Shown: positions 24,219 to 27,701 of the stretch, in pieces
How positions within the stretch are numbered: position 1 is the stretch's first letter
Layout of the letters: each line of letters opens with the position of its first letter
Assembly: GCA_902597895.1 (NCBI GenBank)
Contig: CACJZM010000008.1
Span: forward strand, 1 to 42,608
Direction of reading: 5' to 3'
Origin: an uncultured Pelagibacteraceae bacterium
Lineage (GTDB): Bacteria; Pseudomonadota; Alphaproteobacteria; Pelagibacterales; Pelagibacteraceae
DNA: 42,608 nucleotides
Program-made: the position numbers and the translations under genes
The notes under the pieces: model-generated
What the model was told of the DNA's origin: nothing
Seen by the model: only the letters and a program-made list of their open reading frames with translations
Databases searched by the model: none

Positions 24219-25187
24219 ATGGCTGTTTATACAAAGATAAACTCAACAATAATTTCATCAATTGAAAATAGTTACAGCATAGGAAAAATAATAAAATTTA
24301 GTGGTATTAAAAAAGGAATAGAAAATACTAATTATTTTATTAAGACAAATAAGAAAAAATTTATACTTACAATTTTTGAAAAACGGGTAAATTCAAAAGA
24401 TCTTCCGTTCTTTATGAATTTAATGTCTGGGCTCCATAAATTAAAGATTAAATGCCCAATGCCTATTAAAAATAAAAAGGGTAGTTATTTATTTAAAATA
24501 AAAAAAAAACAAGCTTGTATAGTTACATTTCTTGATGGAAAAGACAAAAGCGAGTTAACTGCAAAAGACTGTTATGTTGTTGGAAAAAATATTGGAAAAT
24601 TACATAAAGCGTCAAAAAAACTTAAAATCTTCAGGAAAAATTCAATGTCGATAAATTCTTGGGGACCGCTCTTAAATAAGATCGATAATAGAATAAACAA
24701 AGTTTCAAAAAATTTAAAGAATTCAATGAAACATGACCTAAATGATATTAAGCAGAAATGGCCTAAAAATTTACCAAAGGGTATTATTCATGGTGATTTG
24801 TTTATAGATAATATTTTCTTTTATAAGAGAAAATTTCTTGGGTACATTGATTTTTATTTTTCTTGCAACGATTTTTTAGCTTATGAATTAGCTATTTGCA
24901 TAAACGCACTTTGTTTTAAAAAAAAAAGAAGTTCCTTTATATTTGATAAAAAAAAATCGACTAATCTTATTAGAGGTTATGAGTCTATTAGAAAATTAAA
25001 TGGAAATGAAAAGAAATACTTTAATGTTCTGTGTCGTGGATCCGCTTTGAGATATTTGCTAACTAGAGCATATGATTATTTAAATACACCAAAAAATGCT
25101 ATAATTAAAATTAAAGATCCAAAAGAATATATTAAAAAGTTAAATTTTCATCGTCAAGTAAAGTCATACAACAATTATATTAATTAA
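24219..25187 (+). CDS. thrB: Homoserine kinase (aminoglycoside-kinase fold, ThrB type)
   Basis: Phosphorylates homoserine for threonine synthesis. The 322-aa product belongs to the choline/aminoglycoside-kinase-like ThrB family, not the GHMP family. It has the nucleotide-binding FSGIKKGIENTNYFI region (27-41), the catalytic HGDLFIDN (191-198) and the metal-binding DFYFS (211-215). Position between ispH and rnhA matches alphaproteobacterial thrB. Threonine synthase, the next step, lies 2.5 kb away on the other strand. It shares TAATG with rnhA. Confidence 0.93.
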   Translation: MAVYTKINSTIISSIENSYSIGKIIKFSGIKKGIENTNYFIKTNKKKFILTIFEKRVNSKDLPFFMNLMSGLHKLKIKCPMPIKNKKGSYLFKIKKKQACIVTFLDGKDKSELTAKDCYVVGKNIGKLHKASKKLKIFRKNSMSINSWGPLLNKIDNRINKVSKNLKNSMKHDLNDIKQKWPKNLPKGIIHGDLFIDNIFFYKRKFLGYIDFYFSCNDFLAYELAICINALCFKKKRSSFIFDKKKSTNLIRGYESIRKLNGNEKKYFNVLCRGSALRYLLTRAYDYLNTPKNAIIKIKDPKEYIKKLNFHRQVKSYNNYIN

Positions 25188-25609
25188 TGATTAAAGTTTA
25201 TACTGATGGTTCTTGCTTAGAAAATCCTGGAAACGGTGGATGGGCAGCAATAATTATTGATGATGGAAAAAAGACTCAAATAAAAGGAAGTAAAAAAAAT
25301 ACTACAAATAATCAAATGGAGTTAATGGCTCCAATTGAAGCTTTAAAGAAAATTCCTAAAGGTAGTAAAGTTCAAATTTTTACAGATTCTAAATATGTAA
25401 AATCAGGAATTACAGAGTGGATCAATAACTGGAAAAAAAATGGGTGGAAAACTGCAAATAAACAAAAAGTTAAAAATAAAGATCTTTGGGTAGAACTTGA
25501 TCTGCTTTCAAGTCAATTTGATATAAAATGGAGCTGGGTAAAAGCACATTCCACTGATAAGTTAAATAATGAAGTAGACTTAATTGCTAGAGAAGCAGCA
25601 AATTTATAA
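25187..25609 (+). CDS. rnhA: Ribonuclease HI
   Basis: Degrades RNA in RNA-DNA hybrids. The 140-aa product is of bacterial RNase HI length with acidic catalytic residues in YTDGSC (D7), NNQMELMAPIEAL (the glutamate), FTDSKYVKSGI and the final NNEVDLIAREAA. It includes the basic protrusion segment WINNWKKNGWKTANKQKVKN. The stop codon is followed directly by the first copy of the island repeat (from 25610). Confidence 0.97.
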   Translation: MIKVYTDGSCLENPGNGGWAAIIIDDGKKTQIKGSKKNTTNNQMELMAPIEALKKIPKGSKVQIFTDSKYVKSGITEWINNWKKNGWKTANKQKVKNKDLWVELDLLSSQFDIKWSWVKAHSTDKLNNEVDLIAREAANL

Positions 25610-25611
25610 AT

Positions 25612-25640
25612 GGGGCACCTGGCAACAGAACGCCCCTTTT
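25612..25640 (+). terminator. Island repeat copy 1: intrinsic terminator of rnhA
   Basis: GGGGC (25612-25616) pairs with GCCCC (25632-25636) and is followed by TTTT. Inside the loop, CTG-GCAA-CAG can form a second short stem closed by a GNRA-type tetraloop. It begins 3 bases after the rnhA stop, so it is well placed as the rnhA terminator. The 29 bases from 25610 are identical to those of copy 3. Confidence 0.7.
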
Positions 25641-25681
25641 AATTCATTGAAGTTCTCTTATAAAAAATATACTCTTTTTTA

Positions 25682-25846
25682 ATGCAAATACTTGGTTACA
25701 TTTTAATAGCACTTGGTGTAGCAGATTTCTTATTAGGAAATTTTGGAAACATAAATCTAACAGGATTTATGGGACCATTATCATCATTTACTCCTATTAT
25801 ATTAATAGTTGTTGGTGGTTTGTTGACTCGAGTTGGAAATAAATAA
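25682..25846 (+). CDS. Small two-helix membrane protein, 54 aa
   Basis: A 54-codon frame, ATG 25682 to TAA 25844-25846, filling the first island cassette. It predicts two hydrophobic helices: LGYILIALGVADFLLGNF near the N-terminus, and FTPIILIVVGGLLTRVG at the C-terminus. It resembles the 69-aa protein of the next cassette: both read L-G-x-I-L, a D-x-L-L-x-x-F segment, then S-x-F-x-P and an ending in G-N. By eye, about 20 of roughly 52 positions agree. No function is recognised. Confidence 0.6.
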   Translation: MQILGYILIALGVADFLLGNFGNINLTGFMGPLSSFTPIILIVVGGLLTRVGNK

Positions 25847-25860
25847 TTATAGTTTAAGGT

Positions 25861-25882
25861 CACCTGGCAACAGAACGCCCCT
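25861..25882 (+). repeat. Island repeat copy 2 (degenerate outer stem)
   Basis: CACCTGGCAACAGAACGCCC continues to CT at 25882 and matches copies 1 and 3 over 22 bases. Upstream, however, the bases read AAGGT where the others have ATGGGG, which weakens the outer GGGGC/GCCCC stem. The inner CTG-GCAA-CAG hairpin is intact. No T-tract follows. It therefore marks a cassette boundary but is a poor terminator as it stands. Confidence 0.8.
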
Positions 25883-25890
25883 CAAAAACT

Positions 25891-26058
25891 TTATTTTTTA
25901 TATCCTGAGCAATATTTTGCTGCAGTTCTATGCGAATAATTATTTTCTATCAATTTATCCATACAATTTGCCAGAGGATCATTTAAAGATGATAAATAAA
26001 TTCCTACGGAAACTATTATTGCTCCAATTATAATTGCATTTGGGATATTAATTTTCAT
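25891..26058 (-). CDS. Small anchored protein, 55 aa
   Basis: Starts at ATG 26058, four bases after the 69-aa gene's stop, so the two look like an operon. Residues 5-22 (about IPNAIIIGAIIVSVGIYL) form one membrane or signal helix. The remainder is soluble with two cysteines in NCMDKLIENNYS and KYCSGYKK, which could form a disulphide outside the cytoplasm. The frame is open further upstream, but that extension lies over the 69-aa gene. No function is recognised. Confidence 0.6.
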   Translation of the reverse strand: MKINIPNAIIIGAIIVSVGIYLSSLNDPLANCMDKLIENNYSHRTAAKYCSGYKK

Positions 26059-26062
26059 TAGT

Positions 26063-26272
26063 CTAATTCCAATTTCCAAAAAGACCAGAACATTGATTTC
26101 CAGTTTGTAATAATAAATAAACCCCCAAGCATATAAAAGCATAAGGAGCAAAGTAAGAAAATTTTCCAAAACCAACTTTATGTGCTAAGTCAAAGTTAAA
26201 TCTGGATAGCAGAATATCAGTACCTGCTAGTATTGCTAATATTTGTCCTAATGAATGCATTAATTCACACAT
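26063..26272 (-). CDS. Small two-helix membrane protein, 69 aa
   Basis: ATG 26272 is preceded by AAGGAG (26288-26283 on the minus strand) with a 10-base spacer, one of the few good ribosome-binding sites in the window, which supports a real gene. Two hydrophobic helices are predicted (about 8-22 and 41-56). It appears to be a distant paralogue of the 54-aa protein in the neighbouring cassette (shared L-G-x-I-L, D-x-L-L-x-x-F, S-x-F-x-P, final G-N). The function is unknown. Confidence 0.7.
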   Translation of the reverse strand: MCELMHSLGQILAILAGTDILLSRFNFDLAHKVGFGKFSYFAPYAFICLGVYLLLQTGNQCSGLFGNWN

Positions 26273-26331
26273 ATTTATTTTTCTCCTTTTTAATCATTAA
26301 GAGAAATTTATTAGATTTTTTTTATTAAGTA

Positions 26332-26361
26332 TTGTCCAAATTTATAATTTATCTTGGACAA
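26332..26361. promoter_or_regulatory. Inverted repeat between divergent island genes
   Basis: TTGTCCAA (26332-26339) and TTGGACAA (26354-26361) are perfect 8-base inverted arms separated by 14 bases. They lie in the 121-base gap between the 69-aa gene (-) and the 79-aa gene (+), so this could be an operator for either or both. A further TTGGACAA stands at 27105-27112, upstream of the 121-aa island gene. Confidence 0.45.
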
Positions 26362-26393
26362 GAATTTATCCAATTAAACATTATATTAAGATC

Positions 26394-26633
26394 ATGATTA
26401 AAAATAAAATAAACAAATGGATCTTATTTTTATATTTTTTAACTGTAGGTAACTATGCACATGCAAGAGTTATAAATGTCAACTCTTGCCCAGTTCCTTT
26501 TGACTTCACAGTTGCAGACTTTTGTGTGTTAAGTACGATTGGAATGTGGATTGCGGTTCCATTAATAATCTTTGCAGTTTATGTTGGTTTCGCCTTGTTT
26601 ACAGGAATAATAAGAAGTATATTTTCAAGATAA
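26394..26633 (+). CDS. Small membrane protein, 79 aa
   Basis: ATG 26394 to TAA 26631-26633. The N-terminus looks like an export signal ending near YAHA (residue 24), followed by VNSCPVPFDFTVADFCVLS with two cysteines and a strong membrane helix (about 51-70, MWIAVPLIIFAVYVGFALF). A basic C-terminal tail follows. The stop is followed within 8 bases by the hairpin that overlaps repeat copy 3. No function is recognised; a small conserved membrane protein is all that can be said. Confidence 0.6.
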   Translation: MIKNKINKWILFLYFLTVGNYAHARVINVNSCPVPFDFTVADFCVLSTIGMWIAVPLIIFAVYVGFALFTGIIRSIFSR

Positions 26634-26640
26634 TTTAGTT

Positions 26641-26683
26641 AGGTGCCCTTAATAATGGGGCACCTGGCAACAGAACGCCCCTT
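26641..26683 (+). terminator. Island repeat copy 3 with two mutually exclusive hairpins
   Basis: AGGTGCCC (26641-26648) pairs with GGGCACCT (26658-26665) around a 9-base loop. The same GGGGC (26657-26661) can instead pair with GCCCC (26677-26681), as in copy 1. The two folds exclude each other. The element lies between the 79-aa gene (+) and the 121-aa gene (-), whose stops face it, so it probably terminates transcription from one or both sides. From 26655, 29 bases are identical to copy 1. Confidence 0.65.
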
Positions 26684-26684
26684 C

Positions 26685-27050
26685 TCAATTAATTTTATCG
26701 CATTTTCCTGAAACATAATCATCAATATCATAATTATCAAATGGATGATCAATTTGTGATGCCCCATATGTCAGGTCATTTTTATTTAATAGTATTGTAG
26801 CAACACCTAAACGATTGGGTATTGTCGCAATTAATAAAATAGCATTTTGATCTTCGTAATATATATCAAAAGATATTTTTTGATTTCCATTAATCTCTCT
26901 AAGTGAAAAATAATCTTTAGAAGTTCGTTCCCAAATATATGTTCCTACAGTATTAGTTGAAGTTTTATTATCTTTGCATACATACGACTCCGCAAATCCA
27001 GTATTGCACCATAACAAACCCAAAACGACGAAAAGAAATATTTTTTTCAT
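26685..27050 (-). CDS. Secreted protein of unknown function, 121 aa
   Basis: ATG 27050 begins a clear signal peptide (MKKIFLFVVLGLLWCNTGFA) with likely cleavage after GFA, followed by ESYVCKDNKTSTN. The frame is open 17 codons further upstream, but that extension would bury the signal peptide, so I reject it. The mature part has two cysteines (in YVCKD and SGKCDK) that could form a disulphide and reads as a small beta-rich periplasmic domain (WERTSKDYFSLREINGNQKI). The pattern recalls many uncharacterised small periplasmic proteins; no family is assigned. Confidence 0.7.
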   Translation of the reverse strand: MKKIFLFVVLGLLWCNTGFAESYVCKDNKTSTNTVGTYIWERTSKDYFSLREINGNQKISFDIYYEDQNAILLIATIPNRLGVATILLNKNDLTYGASQIDHPFDNYDIDDYVSGKCDKIN

Positions 27051-27081
27051 AAAGTAAGAATAATCTAACGCCTGCGGTTTT

Positions 27082-27148
27082 TCAACGAAGTCAAAAGGCA
27101 AACCTTGGACAAAAAAAGTAAATCTCTCAACGAAGTTTTCAACGAAGT
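27082..27148. repeat. Three copies of TCAACGAAGT
   Basis: The 10-base word TCAACGAAGT occurs at 27082-27091, 27127-27136 and 27139-27148, in the 136-base gap upstream of the 121-aa gene. The last two are separated by only two bases and all are on the same strand. They may be iterons for a regulator or remnants of local duplication. The rest of the gap shows no other feature. Confidence 0.55.
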
Positions 27149-27186
27149 AGTTTGATTAAGTGAGCAAATATACTATTTTCTAATCT

Positions 27187-27210
27187 AATGCCGGGCAACA
27201 GAACGCCCCT
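27187..27210 (+). repeat. Island repeat copy 4, abutting the peroxiredoxin stop
   Basis: GGCAACAGAACGCCCCT at 27194-27210 with altered upstream bases (ATGCCG where copies 1 and 3 have ATGGGGCACCT). GGGC (27193-27196) can pair with GCCC (27205-27208). The element ends 5 bases from the peroxiredoxin stop, mirroring copy 1 beside rnhA. Together copies 1 and 4 look like the two ends of one ancestral intergenic element that was split by insertions. Confidence 0.75.
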
Positions 27211-27215
27211 TCTAA

Positions 27216-27701
27216 TCAGATAATATCTAGAATTCCCTCTGCTGAGGAAATACCACAACTTTTAGTTTCTTCTTCTTCTTGGATATTTTGGACTTTTAAG
27301 TTTTCAATAATCATAGCGTAACGACTAGATCTAATTCCCATACCTTTTGAATTTCTGTCAATTTCTGCACCAATTAATTTAGTAAATGATAAATACGGAT
27401 CAGCTAACATTTTGATATTATTTCGAACATTGTTAGCTTCTCCCCAAGCATTCATTACGTGTGGGTCATTTACTGAAATACAAAATATTTTATCAATTCC
27501 TTTTGCTATGATTTTTTCAGCATTTTTTACATACCCTGGTAAATGAAATTTAGAGCATGTAGAAGTGTATGCTCCTGGTAATCCAAATAAGAGTACTTTG
27601 CTGTTTCCCAAGGTTTCTTTAATGTTTTGCTCCTTTGGCTCGCCGTCTTTTAAAATATAGATATTAGCCTCAGGTATAAGGTCATTTACTTTTAATTTCA
27701 T
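27216..27701 (-). CDS. Peroxiredoxin (Prx5-like, AhpC/TSA superfamily)
   Basis: Thiol peroxidase that reduces hydrogen peroxide and alkyl peroxides. The 161-aa product has the peroxidatic cysteine C49 in LPGAYTSTCSKFHLPGY, corresponding to the usual PGAFTPTCS, and the Prx5-typical SVNDPHVMNAWGE and the later GIRSSRYAMIIE. A C-terminal cysteine in KSCGIS may act as resolving residue. No glutaredoxin domain is fused. Its ATG overlaps the thrC stop (ATGA), so it follows thrC in one operon. Confidence 0.93.
   Translation of the reverse strand: MKLKVNDLIPEANIYILKDGEPKEQNIKETLGNSKVLLFGLPGAYTSTCSKFHLPGYVKNAEKIIAKGIDKIFCISVNDPHVMNAWGEANNVRNNIKMLADPYLSFTKLIGAEIDRNSKGMGIRSSRYAMIIENLKVQNIQEEEETKSCGISSAEGILDII

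Follow-up and report, generated by a model that had tools for sequence, protein, structure and literature searches.

A probable tandem array of integrase-less cassettes on a tmRNA-type attachment site between rnhA and a peroxiredoxin gene in Pelagibacteraceae

The DNA analysed here is a stretch of 42,608 nucleotides from an uncultured Pelagibacteraceae bacterium of the SAR11 group (assembly GCA_902597895.1, contig CACJZM010000008.1, positions 1 to 42,608 of the forward strand; hereafter the window). Its subject is a 1.6 kb interval between rnhA and the peroxiredoxin gene prx that is punctuated by four copies of a short repeat, the 3′ end of the transfer-messenger RNA (tmRNA) gene ssrA. We consider it very likely that this island is a tandem array of three cassettes that lack an integrase, are moved in trans, and accumulated by accretion on a transplanted tmRNA attachment (att) site. 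Genome comparison shows one and the same cassette in arrays at both ssrA and rnhA, and close relatives that differ by a single cassette with exact joints.

The core of the repeat, GGCAACAGAACGCCCCT, occurs as four exact plus-strand copies (starts 25621, 25866, 26666 and 27194), where shuffling gave an expected mean of 0.01; a search of both strands of the window at up to three mismatches found nothing beyond these four. The cores are separated by 228, 783 and 511 bases and split the interval into three segments with small genes, in agreement with an original prediction, made from the sequence, of four same-orientation copies with spacers of about 230, 780 and 510 bases. Copies 1 and 3, predicted to be identical over 29 bases, are identical over 30 (25609-25638 and 26654-26683). 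The outer copies had been said to touch the stop codons of the border genes and do lie close to them, the core of copy 1 starting 12 bases past the rnhA stop and that of copy 4 ending 5 bases before the prx stop.

Elsewhere in the assembly (1.01 Mb, 83% complete), a sole fifth copy was found at up to two mismatches, at the 3′ end of a permuted ssrA gene on contig C3 (Rfam alpha tmRNA, 226 bits; tag ANDKFALAA). Copies 1 and 3 match the last 28 and 27 bases of this gene, respectively, without a mismatch; the repeat is therefore the end of the tmRNA gene. The alpha tmRNA end was also the sole significant Rfam match near the copies, with a score that falls short of the gathering score in the window and clearly exceeds it at ssrA. 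The model's weak scores on C1 and C5 and at C8:41595 were put down to chance. Behind ssrA in this genome come about 3 kb of sugar- or membrane-related-looking genes and then tRNA-Leu (L011:13155-16128), with no second att copy.

The description of the repeat as terminator-like fared poorly. A stem is possible at copy 1 (GGGGC/GCCCC, z -3.0), and a stronger hairpin (z -3.5) includes copy 3; the plus strand of copies 2 and 4 folds no better than shuffled sequence. An ordinary intrinsic terminator, with a GC-rich hairpin and a T run at each copy, was rejected because a terminator scan called none at any of the four copies and, on the plus strand, folding clearly above the shuffled level is limited to copy 1 and the hairpin at copy 3.

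Distribution of the site and traces of recombination

At up to three mismatches the motif was present in 174 of 201 genomes of the genus, while a backwards control gave one hit in the 201. Counted by hand from the tables, 93 of the 201 genomes carry at least two copies, and in 54 of the 201 the copies lie no more than 7 kb apart on one contig; in the remaining 39 multi-copy genomes they are on separate contigs or distant. An order-wide draw of 247 genomes found copies and clusters in other genera of the same family as well. In a second family 10 of 53 genomes matched, always through one other sequence, CCTGGCACAAGAACACCCC, which is probably a coding stretch there. Among the 80 named records listed, of at least 120 found, 79 were Pelagibacterales and one was a Rhodobiaceae bin.

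Arrays were mapped on 80 stretches selected for copies or for rnhA. Tandem arrays begin at ssrA, where L107 has eight sites, downstream of rnhA, or in the gap between a pnp-like and a fabI-like gene, and other locations exist, for example in L125 and L148. The third of these sites was seen in four genomes (L157, L162, L163 and L111), with domains checked in one, where a gene with KH and S1 domains was read as pnp and its neighbour as a fabI-like reductase. ssrA is the main site and rnhA a secondary one. Sites are spaced at a median of 684 bp (range 88-6173 bp, 120 cassettes). Part of the coding sequence of ppdK (pyruvate phosphate dikinase) is similar to the motif when up to four mismatches are allowed and does not represent att copies; five ppdK rows were removed before half-sites were counted (212 to 207). 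Two further ppdK rows, on L120 and L158, passed the filter; since both stretches have copies on the two strands, these rows appear to be oriented opposite to the arrays and thus to enter the counts as singles.

rnhA was matched in 139 of the 201 genomes and lay on fetched stretches in 96, and 93 genomes with rnhA and its right neighbour together were judged. At up to four mismatches, this interval holds no copy in 59 genomes, one in 21, two in nine, three in two, four in the window and five in one, and its content varies, as the prediction of a cassette site with changing number and content required. rnhA and prx are 37-50 bp apart, a gap that is mostly site, in 10 of the 21 one-copy genomes; this supports the proposal that recombination took place at one element lying between rnhA and prx, leaving each segment flanked by copies. 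Neither the same copies and genes in fixed order nor single repeats behind unrelated genes were seen; the motif was tied to ssrA and to arrays. In siteless genomes TAG is followed directly by TAGATTGTTCAATAAG, and in G065 and G072 by the site and then TAGATTAGATTATTTAATAAG, the empty site of G065 being GGGCACCTGGCAACAGAACTGCCC. Visibly decayed rnhA sites were found in G018 and G184. In part of the genus prx is absent between rnhA and thrC, and the rnhA and thrC matches lie 4 bp apart in L056, L059, L065 and L066.

Seven comparisons of filled and empty rnhA loci showed a one-cassette difference with exact joints. The flanks are 87-97% identical, and the pairs are therefore related species, not clones. 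The overlap at the joint was 17 bp for G085 against G039 and 14 bp against G117, 22 bp for G174 against G071, 17 bp for G047 against G120, and 35, 46 and 37 bp for G103 against G065, G104 and G072, respectively.

The half-sites segregate to the outer copies, as if the crossover took place within about 7 bp, ACAGAAC. In six filled rnhA arrays (G103, G086, G188, G110, G085 and G079) the first copy carries CGCCCC and a right half of the chromosomal type (CTGCCC, CAGCCC, CGGCCC, TTGCCC or CTGCCA) is found only in the last; the other filled rnhA arrays, including that of the window, are uninformative or decayed at the half-sites. Across 57 runs of at least two copies, the right half was changed in 22 of 57 last copies versus 13 of 120 first and internal copies (p=3e-5), and the left half in 7 of 57 first versus 72 of 120 later copies (p=8e-10), values that treat related genomes as independent, which counts against them, and that serve as a guide only. 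Among 178 copies outside ssrA, a set chosen by motif similarity with the ppdK rows still in, the best conserved block is AACAGAAC (93-99%, against 82-93% for its neighbours). A crossover region of 7 bp fits tyrosine recombinases.

In an explanation that needs no site-specific recombinase, the arrays would have been built by homologous recombination among scattered copies of the tmRNA end or by a duplicated terminator; the repeats are indeed short, identical and at gene ends, with copies 1 and 3 foldable as hairpins. The segregation of half-sites to the outer copies and the exactness of the joints argue against homologous recombination, as do joint overlaps of only 14-22 bp in four of the seven comparisons (35-46 bp in the other three) and element ends with direct repeats like arm sites; the terminator version is opposed by the lack of a scored terminator at the copies. 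We regard this explanation as highly improbable.

A further pattern concerned the host's own gene. In a clade represented by G028, G152, G074, G196 and G154, ssrA itself ends in a variant, CCGGGTAACAGAACGCCCC (written elsewhere CCGGGTAACAG), and the same variant is present in 10 of the 11 other copies of these genomes (L376, L379, L381, L382, L159 and L125). Both copies in G141 carry it, ssrA not being on that stretch. It is as if the cassette pool follows the tmRNA variant of its host.

Cassettes of the window and of related arrays

The left border gene, rnhA (25187..25609, plus strand), encodes ribonuclease HI (Pfam RNase_H 1.7e-46; NCBIfam ribonuclease HI above cut-off). It is followed by the rnhA-proximal, attL-like att copy 1 (25612..25638, plus), identified by the identity of its 27 bases to the ssrA 3′ end and by the retention of a site here in one-copy relatives; the putative crossover ACAGAAC would lie at 25625-25631. 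Cassette 1 holds an open reading frame (ORF) for a small membrane-type protein of 54 amino acids (aa; 25682..25846, plus), and its right end is att copy 2 (25858..25882, plus), found by motif scan. A homologue of the 54-aa protein, 94% identical in amino acids, is followed by an att copy in the ssrA array of G210 (L296, L364).

Cassette 2 encodes a small 55-aa protein (25891..26058, minus; within a 94-aa frame, without a Pfam family), a small 69-aa membrane-type protein (26063..26272, minus; LiaF-like Pfam matches, all sub-threshold) and a 79-aa protein with a hydrophobic N-terminus (26394..26633, plus), which recurs in ssrA arrays and served as a mobility marker. A hairpin, AGGTGCCC-loop-GGGGCACCT (26639..26665, plus; fold -22.2 kcal/mol, z -3.85), stands to the left of att copy 3 and overlaps it; the homologous hairpin of G294 has a paired change, AGATGCCC/GGGCATCT, that keeps the folding (-21 kcal/mol, z -5.2). 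Att copy 3 (26657..26683, plus), the right end of cassette 2, was assigned by identity to ssrA and by the loss of homology to G094 about 10 bases past its right edge.

Cassette 3 encodes a 121-aa protein with a signal-peptide-like N-terminus (26685..27050, minus; an ORF with no family assigned by Pfam or PHROGs), and cassettes in other arrays encode a similar N-terminus. Three direct repeats, CAACGAAG, at 27083, 27128 and 27140 (27083..27147, plus), putative arm-type integrase sites, belong to a right end of the type termed F1 below. They precede the prx-proximal, attR-like att copy 4 (27181..27211, plus), which has the F1 left half TAATCTAATGCCGGGC and was assigned by this right-end module; the same module precedes att copies beside other genes elsewhere. 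The right border gene prx (27216..27701, minus) encodes a protein of the peroxiredoxin/Redoxin family (Pfam Redoxin 1.8e-26).

None of the five genes in the window cassettes has a Pfam family above threshold, and four are without a PHROGs match. ORF, Pfam and PHROGs scans found neither an integrase nor a replication gene of their own in these cassettes, and no Phage_integrase (PF00589) match on the contig. In the whole assembly PF00589 was matched once, on a different contig, which agrees with the prediction that no recombinase is nearby, serine recombinases not having been searched for.

The 79-aa gene of cassette 2 speaks for movement of the window cassettes; of 399 genomes in the genus, 9 have it, the window's own among them. 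In G094 it forms the first cassette behind ssrA, where 366 of 386 nt are identical to the window and homology ends about 10 bases past the att copy; the ssrA genes of the two genomes are only 86% identical. It is also present in the ssrA arrays of G294, G058, G113, G381 and G210 (six including G094).

The rnhA array could be an old and immobile relic, with cassettes that were formerly mobile and are now fixed and decaying. The lack of a tyrosine integrase gene near the window array would suit this explanation, as would the decay of some last copies and of whole rnhA sites elsewhere. Set against it are the intact 17-base core in all four window copies, the 95% identity of part of cassette 2 to a copy at ssrA in another genome, and the single-cassette differences among close relatives, and we think a relic unlikely.

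Across the mapped arrays, the cargo is small proteins of membrane or secreted type, and some of the larger cassettes carry restriction-modification systems. The 120 cassettes contain 184 frames of at least 60 aa, covering 80% of their length, of which 126 run against and 58 along the att orientation; five cassettes have no frame of even 50 aa. A Pfam scan of 130 proteins (128 of the 141 frames of at least 90 aa and two large proteins of L094) matched 98 families. Among the matches are a type I restriction system (L150), a helicase/PLD and Eco57I-type methylase pair (L094), other DNA methylases, trypsin-like proteases, and DUF805, SHOCT and adhesin-E proteins. The genes of L094 are cassette-like by position only, because a single site was recognised in this long rnhA interval. 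PADLOC reported restriction and methylase models, plus broad models of doubtful meaning. A 110-aa protein without a Pfam family adjoins restriction-modification genes in two cassettes, one at rnhA and one at ssrA (L131:1076-1408, and the reverse strand of L150). Two very small cassettes, of about 128 bp (L105, G085) and 88 bp (L130, G047), are below ordinary gene size and may be minimal mobile att units; the former has a direct repeat, ACATTGAAG, near its right end.

Element ends, candidate integrases and array growth

The left flanks of att copies cluster into end families. F1 (30 copies in 22 genomes) is a loose cluster that includes related types, has tandem CAAYGAAG repeats and counts window copy 4 among its members. 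F5 is a family of seven copies with tandem TATGTACC repeats, and F3 (17 copies, 16 genomes) has the end motif ACAAAGTTCGGGGCACCTGG, to which the end of F4 (15 copies, 13 genomes) is related. Tandem pairs were present in 22 of 172 flanks for CAAYGAAG and in 6 of 172 for TATGTACC, and in none of 200 shuffled sets; within the window, only the tiles of copy 4 have a CAAYGAAG pair. These tandem pairs look like integrase arm sites.

A candidate helper was found in G160, where a 6.2-kb element behind ssrA encodes a tyrosine integrase and a phage-type DNA primase (PHROGs 3.5e-55 and 8.1e-25) and carries the F3 motif (GAAACAAAGTTCGGGGCACCTGG) at its right end. The sole other match above 50% identity in 399 genomes, 52% identical to the G160 integrase, lies directly behind ssrA in G241. 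None of 18 weaker relatives has ssrA within about 1.5 kb on either side, and seven have a tRNA gene there. These positions link this integrase type to ssrA and, through the end motif, to other cassettes; the window cassettes have other end types. The F3 cassettes share the G160 end; no integrase-bearing partner turned up for F1, nor for the types of end that cassettes 1 and 2 have.

Viral contigs were scanned for exact matches to a 19-mer, a 16-mer and two end motifs. Eight of them (L042-L049, one of 242,646 bases) have a permuted tmRNA of their own, with a tag ending in ADENLALAA and a 3′ end with the exact att motif. The matches in L081-L086 and L372-L375 are within unrelated phage genes and look like chance. 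A two-piece tmRNA related to those of SAR11 is in print for an OM43 phage (PMC9004378). The integrase itself matched nothing on the viral contigs, and as a two-sequence profile it found two relatives at 23% identity.

Taken together, these observations are consistent with a model in which Pelagibacteraceae elements with tyrosine integrases insert into the 3′ end of ssrA. Each insert would bring its own left half-site and a copy of the last bases of the gene (GCCCC), so that ssrA is rebuilt. Entry would occur mostly at the gene-proximal site, and the array would grow by accretion with its oldest copy farthest away. Small cassettes would have lost, or never had, an integrase and would be moved in trans by the integrases of satellite-like elements such as that of G160. 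An early insertion may have left a tmRNA-type site between rnhA and prx, thereby providing a second landing pad, with the pnp-fabI gap as a third; an old insertion that left its site is the simplest reading of the origin of the rnhA site.

A different source of the activity would be a conserved recombinase resident in the genus: as in an integron, the 317-aa tyrosine recombinase at C2:81251 would insert and excise the cassettes, and satellites would borrow its site. This protein is the assembly's only PF00589 match, the one-contig genome G012 likewise has one, and relatives in four other fetched genomes are 68-71% identical. Its best NCBIfam match is XerD, far below cut-off, and the enzyme is expected to be required for resolving chromosome dimers. 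In the 52 array genomes, PF00589 matches of similar size to it are located away from the mapped arrays, and end families with different repeats (CAAYGAAG and TATGTACC) suggest several integrases and not one resident enzyme. We consider a resident recombinase improbable as the driver of the arrays.

Several observations weigh against accretion of cassettes moved in trans. No excision, circular form or transfer was observed, and the direction of growth is read solely from far-copy decay. Many internal copies have a full ssrA-type left half, which makes their crossover unmappable, and the single site of G071 looks hybrid, perhaps as a remnant of loss. Intervals above 300 bp at rnhA lack the expected copies in 14 of the 59 genomes with zero copies and in 9 of the 21 with a single copy, the zero-copy inserts without a recognisable att ranging from 330 to 2613 bp (L100, L102, L309, L365 and ten others); such inserts may reflect decayed sites or another insertion route. 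The 79-aa gene is found without an att copy within four mismatches in G356 (at rnhA) and in G253, and one other copy in G154 is without the host's ssrA variant. As to the helper, a PF00589 match lies inside a mapped array only in G160 among the 52 array genomes, of which 15 have none, the assemblies being incomplete; the G241 contig ends before the far border of its element; and viral contigs hold the exact motif only as the eight phage tmRNA gene ends or by chance, with no close integrase.

A broader proposal is that SAR11 maintains an integron-like exchange, in which several satellite integrases with their own arm repeats use one 7-bp core at the tmRNA end, bare cassettes down to about 100 bp are moved in trans, a transplantable address (as at rnhA-prx and pnp-fabI) can found new arrays elsewhere on the chromosome, and the whole forms a main store of restriction-modification and surface genes. 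We hold this proposal tentatively, as a possibility somewhat short of even. If it is true, the arrays are a defence gene store in organisms thought to be defence-poor. If arrays grow as modelled here, they would let very small genomes swap genes, and bare cassettes, should they be mobile, would form a natural class of integrase-dependent DNA of very small size. The precise and recognisable site allows cassettes, their boundaries and perhaps their age order to be read from single-cell genomes or long-read metagenomes; it also indicates where anti-phage genes of SAR11 might be sought and gives the helper integrases a defined target.

Comparison with known systems

Chromosomal integrons are tandem arrays of cassettes, often of small genes with no known role, with a recombination site at one end of each cassette and an integrase supplied from elsewhere. 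Their attC sites are folded, with the core RYYYAAC / GTTRRRY. By contrast, SAR11 cassette genes are in mixed orientation relative to the site, and the invariant site GGCAACAGAACGCCCC, of tmRNA origin, is unlike the attC palindrome as judged by eye only. Against the cut-off of 265 for integrase_gron, the IntI model, the resident recombinase scored 26.7 bits and two satellite integrases 41.3 and 49.4. By this integrase test the SAR11 array is not an integron. A 2007 study reported that the hypervariable regions of SAR11 contain no attC sites and did not settle how their variation arises (PMC2217521).

A close parallel is with the ssrA islands of Dehalococcoides, which are likewise arranged in tandem behind ssrA and have ssrA, or a 20-bp direct repeat matching the 3′ end of that gene, at their borders; an integration module is missing from 15 of 31, which might be cis-mobilizable, and island content is strain-variable (PMC3146451). 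The same bounds, ssrA and direct repeats of its 3′ end, were found in the SAR11 array family, while the window array itself lies at rnhA with ssrA on another contig. The Dehalococcoides islands differ in having a Ccr-like recombinase, DsiB, insertion in the T-loop, a six-gene integration module where present, and repeats all downstream of ssrA (PMC3146451). In SAR11 the tmRNA is permuted and in two pieces, and the att site corresponds to the 3′ end of its coding piece; the integrases linked to ssrA are of the tyrosine type (serine recombinases not having been searched for), and the att site is also found at rnhA and pnp.

The additive flexible genomic island 2 (fGI-2) of 'Ca. Methylopumilus' similarly combines a streamlined aquatic host with recurrence of the last 20 bp of a gene, tRNA-Lys; the islands so marked span 330 bp-42 kb, with 79-80% unknown proteins (PMC10872708). 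It differs in using tRNA-Lys and not tmRNA, and that part of the source describes no crossover mapping, half-site logic, integrase-less cassette families or relocation of the site into a gap between protein genes (PMC10872708). The SAR11 cassettes work like cis-mobilizable elements (CIMEs) growing by accretion, as outlined for tandem integrative and conjugative (ICE) or mobilizable (IME) elements in PMC5704250. Flanking attL and attR, by which CIMEs are recognised, are represented by four intact sites in the window and by half-site segregation in its relatives. A second mark of CIMEs is that they contain no integrase or transfer gene, and the genes of the window cassettes gave no integrase and no family match above threshold in Pfam. 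CIMEs as described there are of a decayed conjugative type (PMC5704250), whereas the SAR11 cassettes are tiny and their helper candidates are satellite-like integrase elements, conjugation genes not having been searched for.

Tycheposons (PMC10872708) and phage-inducible chromosomal minimalist islands (PICMIs; PMC10803314) are also small or cargo-carrying integrative elements of marine bacteria. Tycheposons have tyrosine recombinases and sit at tRNA genes (PMC10872708). The G160 element, with an integrase and a DNA primase, has the integrase and replication gene of its own that mark such satellites; the window cassettes have neither and form arrays.

A search by title and start of abstract, with most subscription journals outside it, found no paper on SAR11 cassette arrays at ssrA or the tmRNA end. 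The original prediction of an undescribed cassette site therefore stands for the present version and not for the principle, as tandem site-specific islands at tRNA and tmRNA genes are known. As far as these searches show, the apparently new elements are the SAR11 setting, the tiny integrase-less cassettes, a 7-bp core shared beneath several end families, and a tmRNA-type site that founds arrays in the gaps between protein genes.

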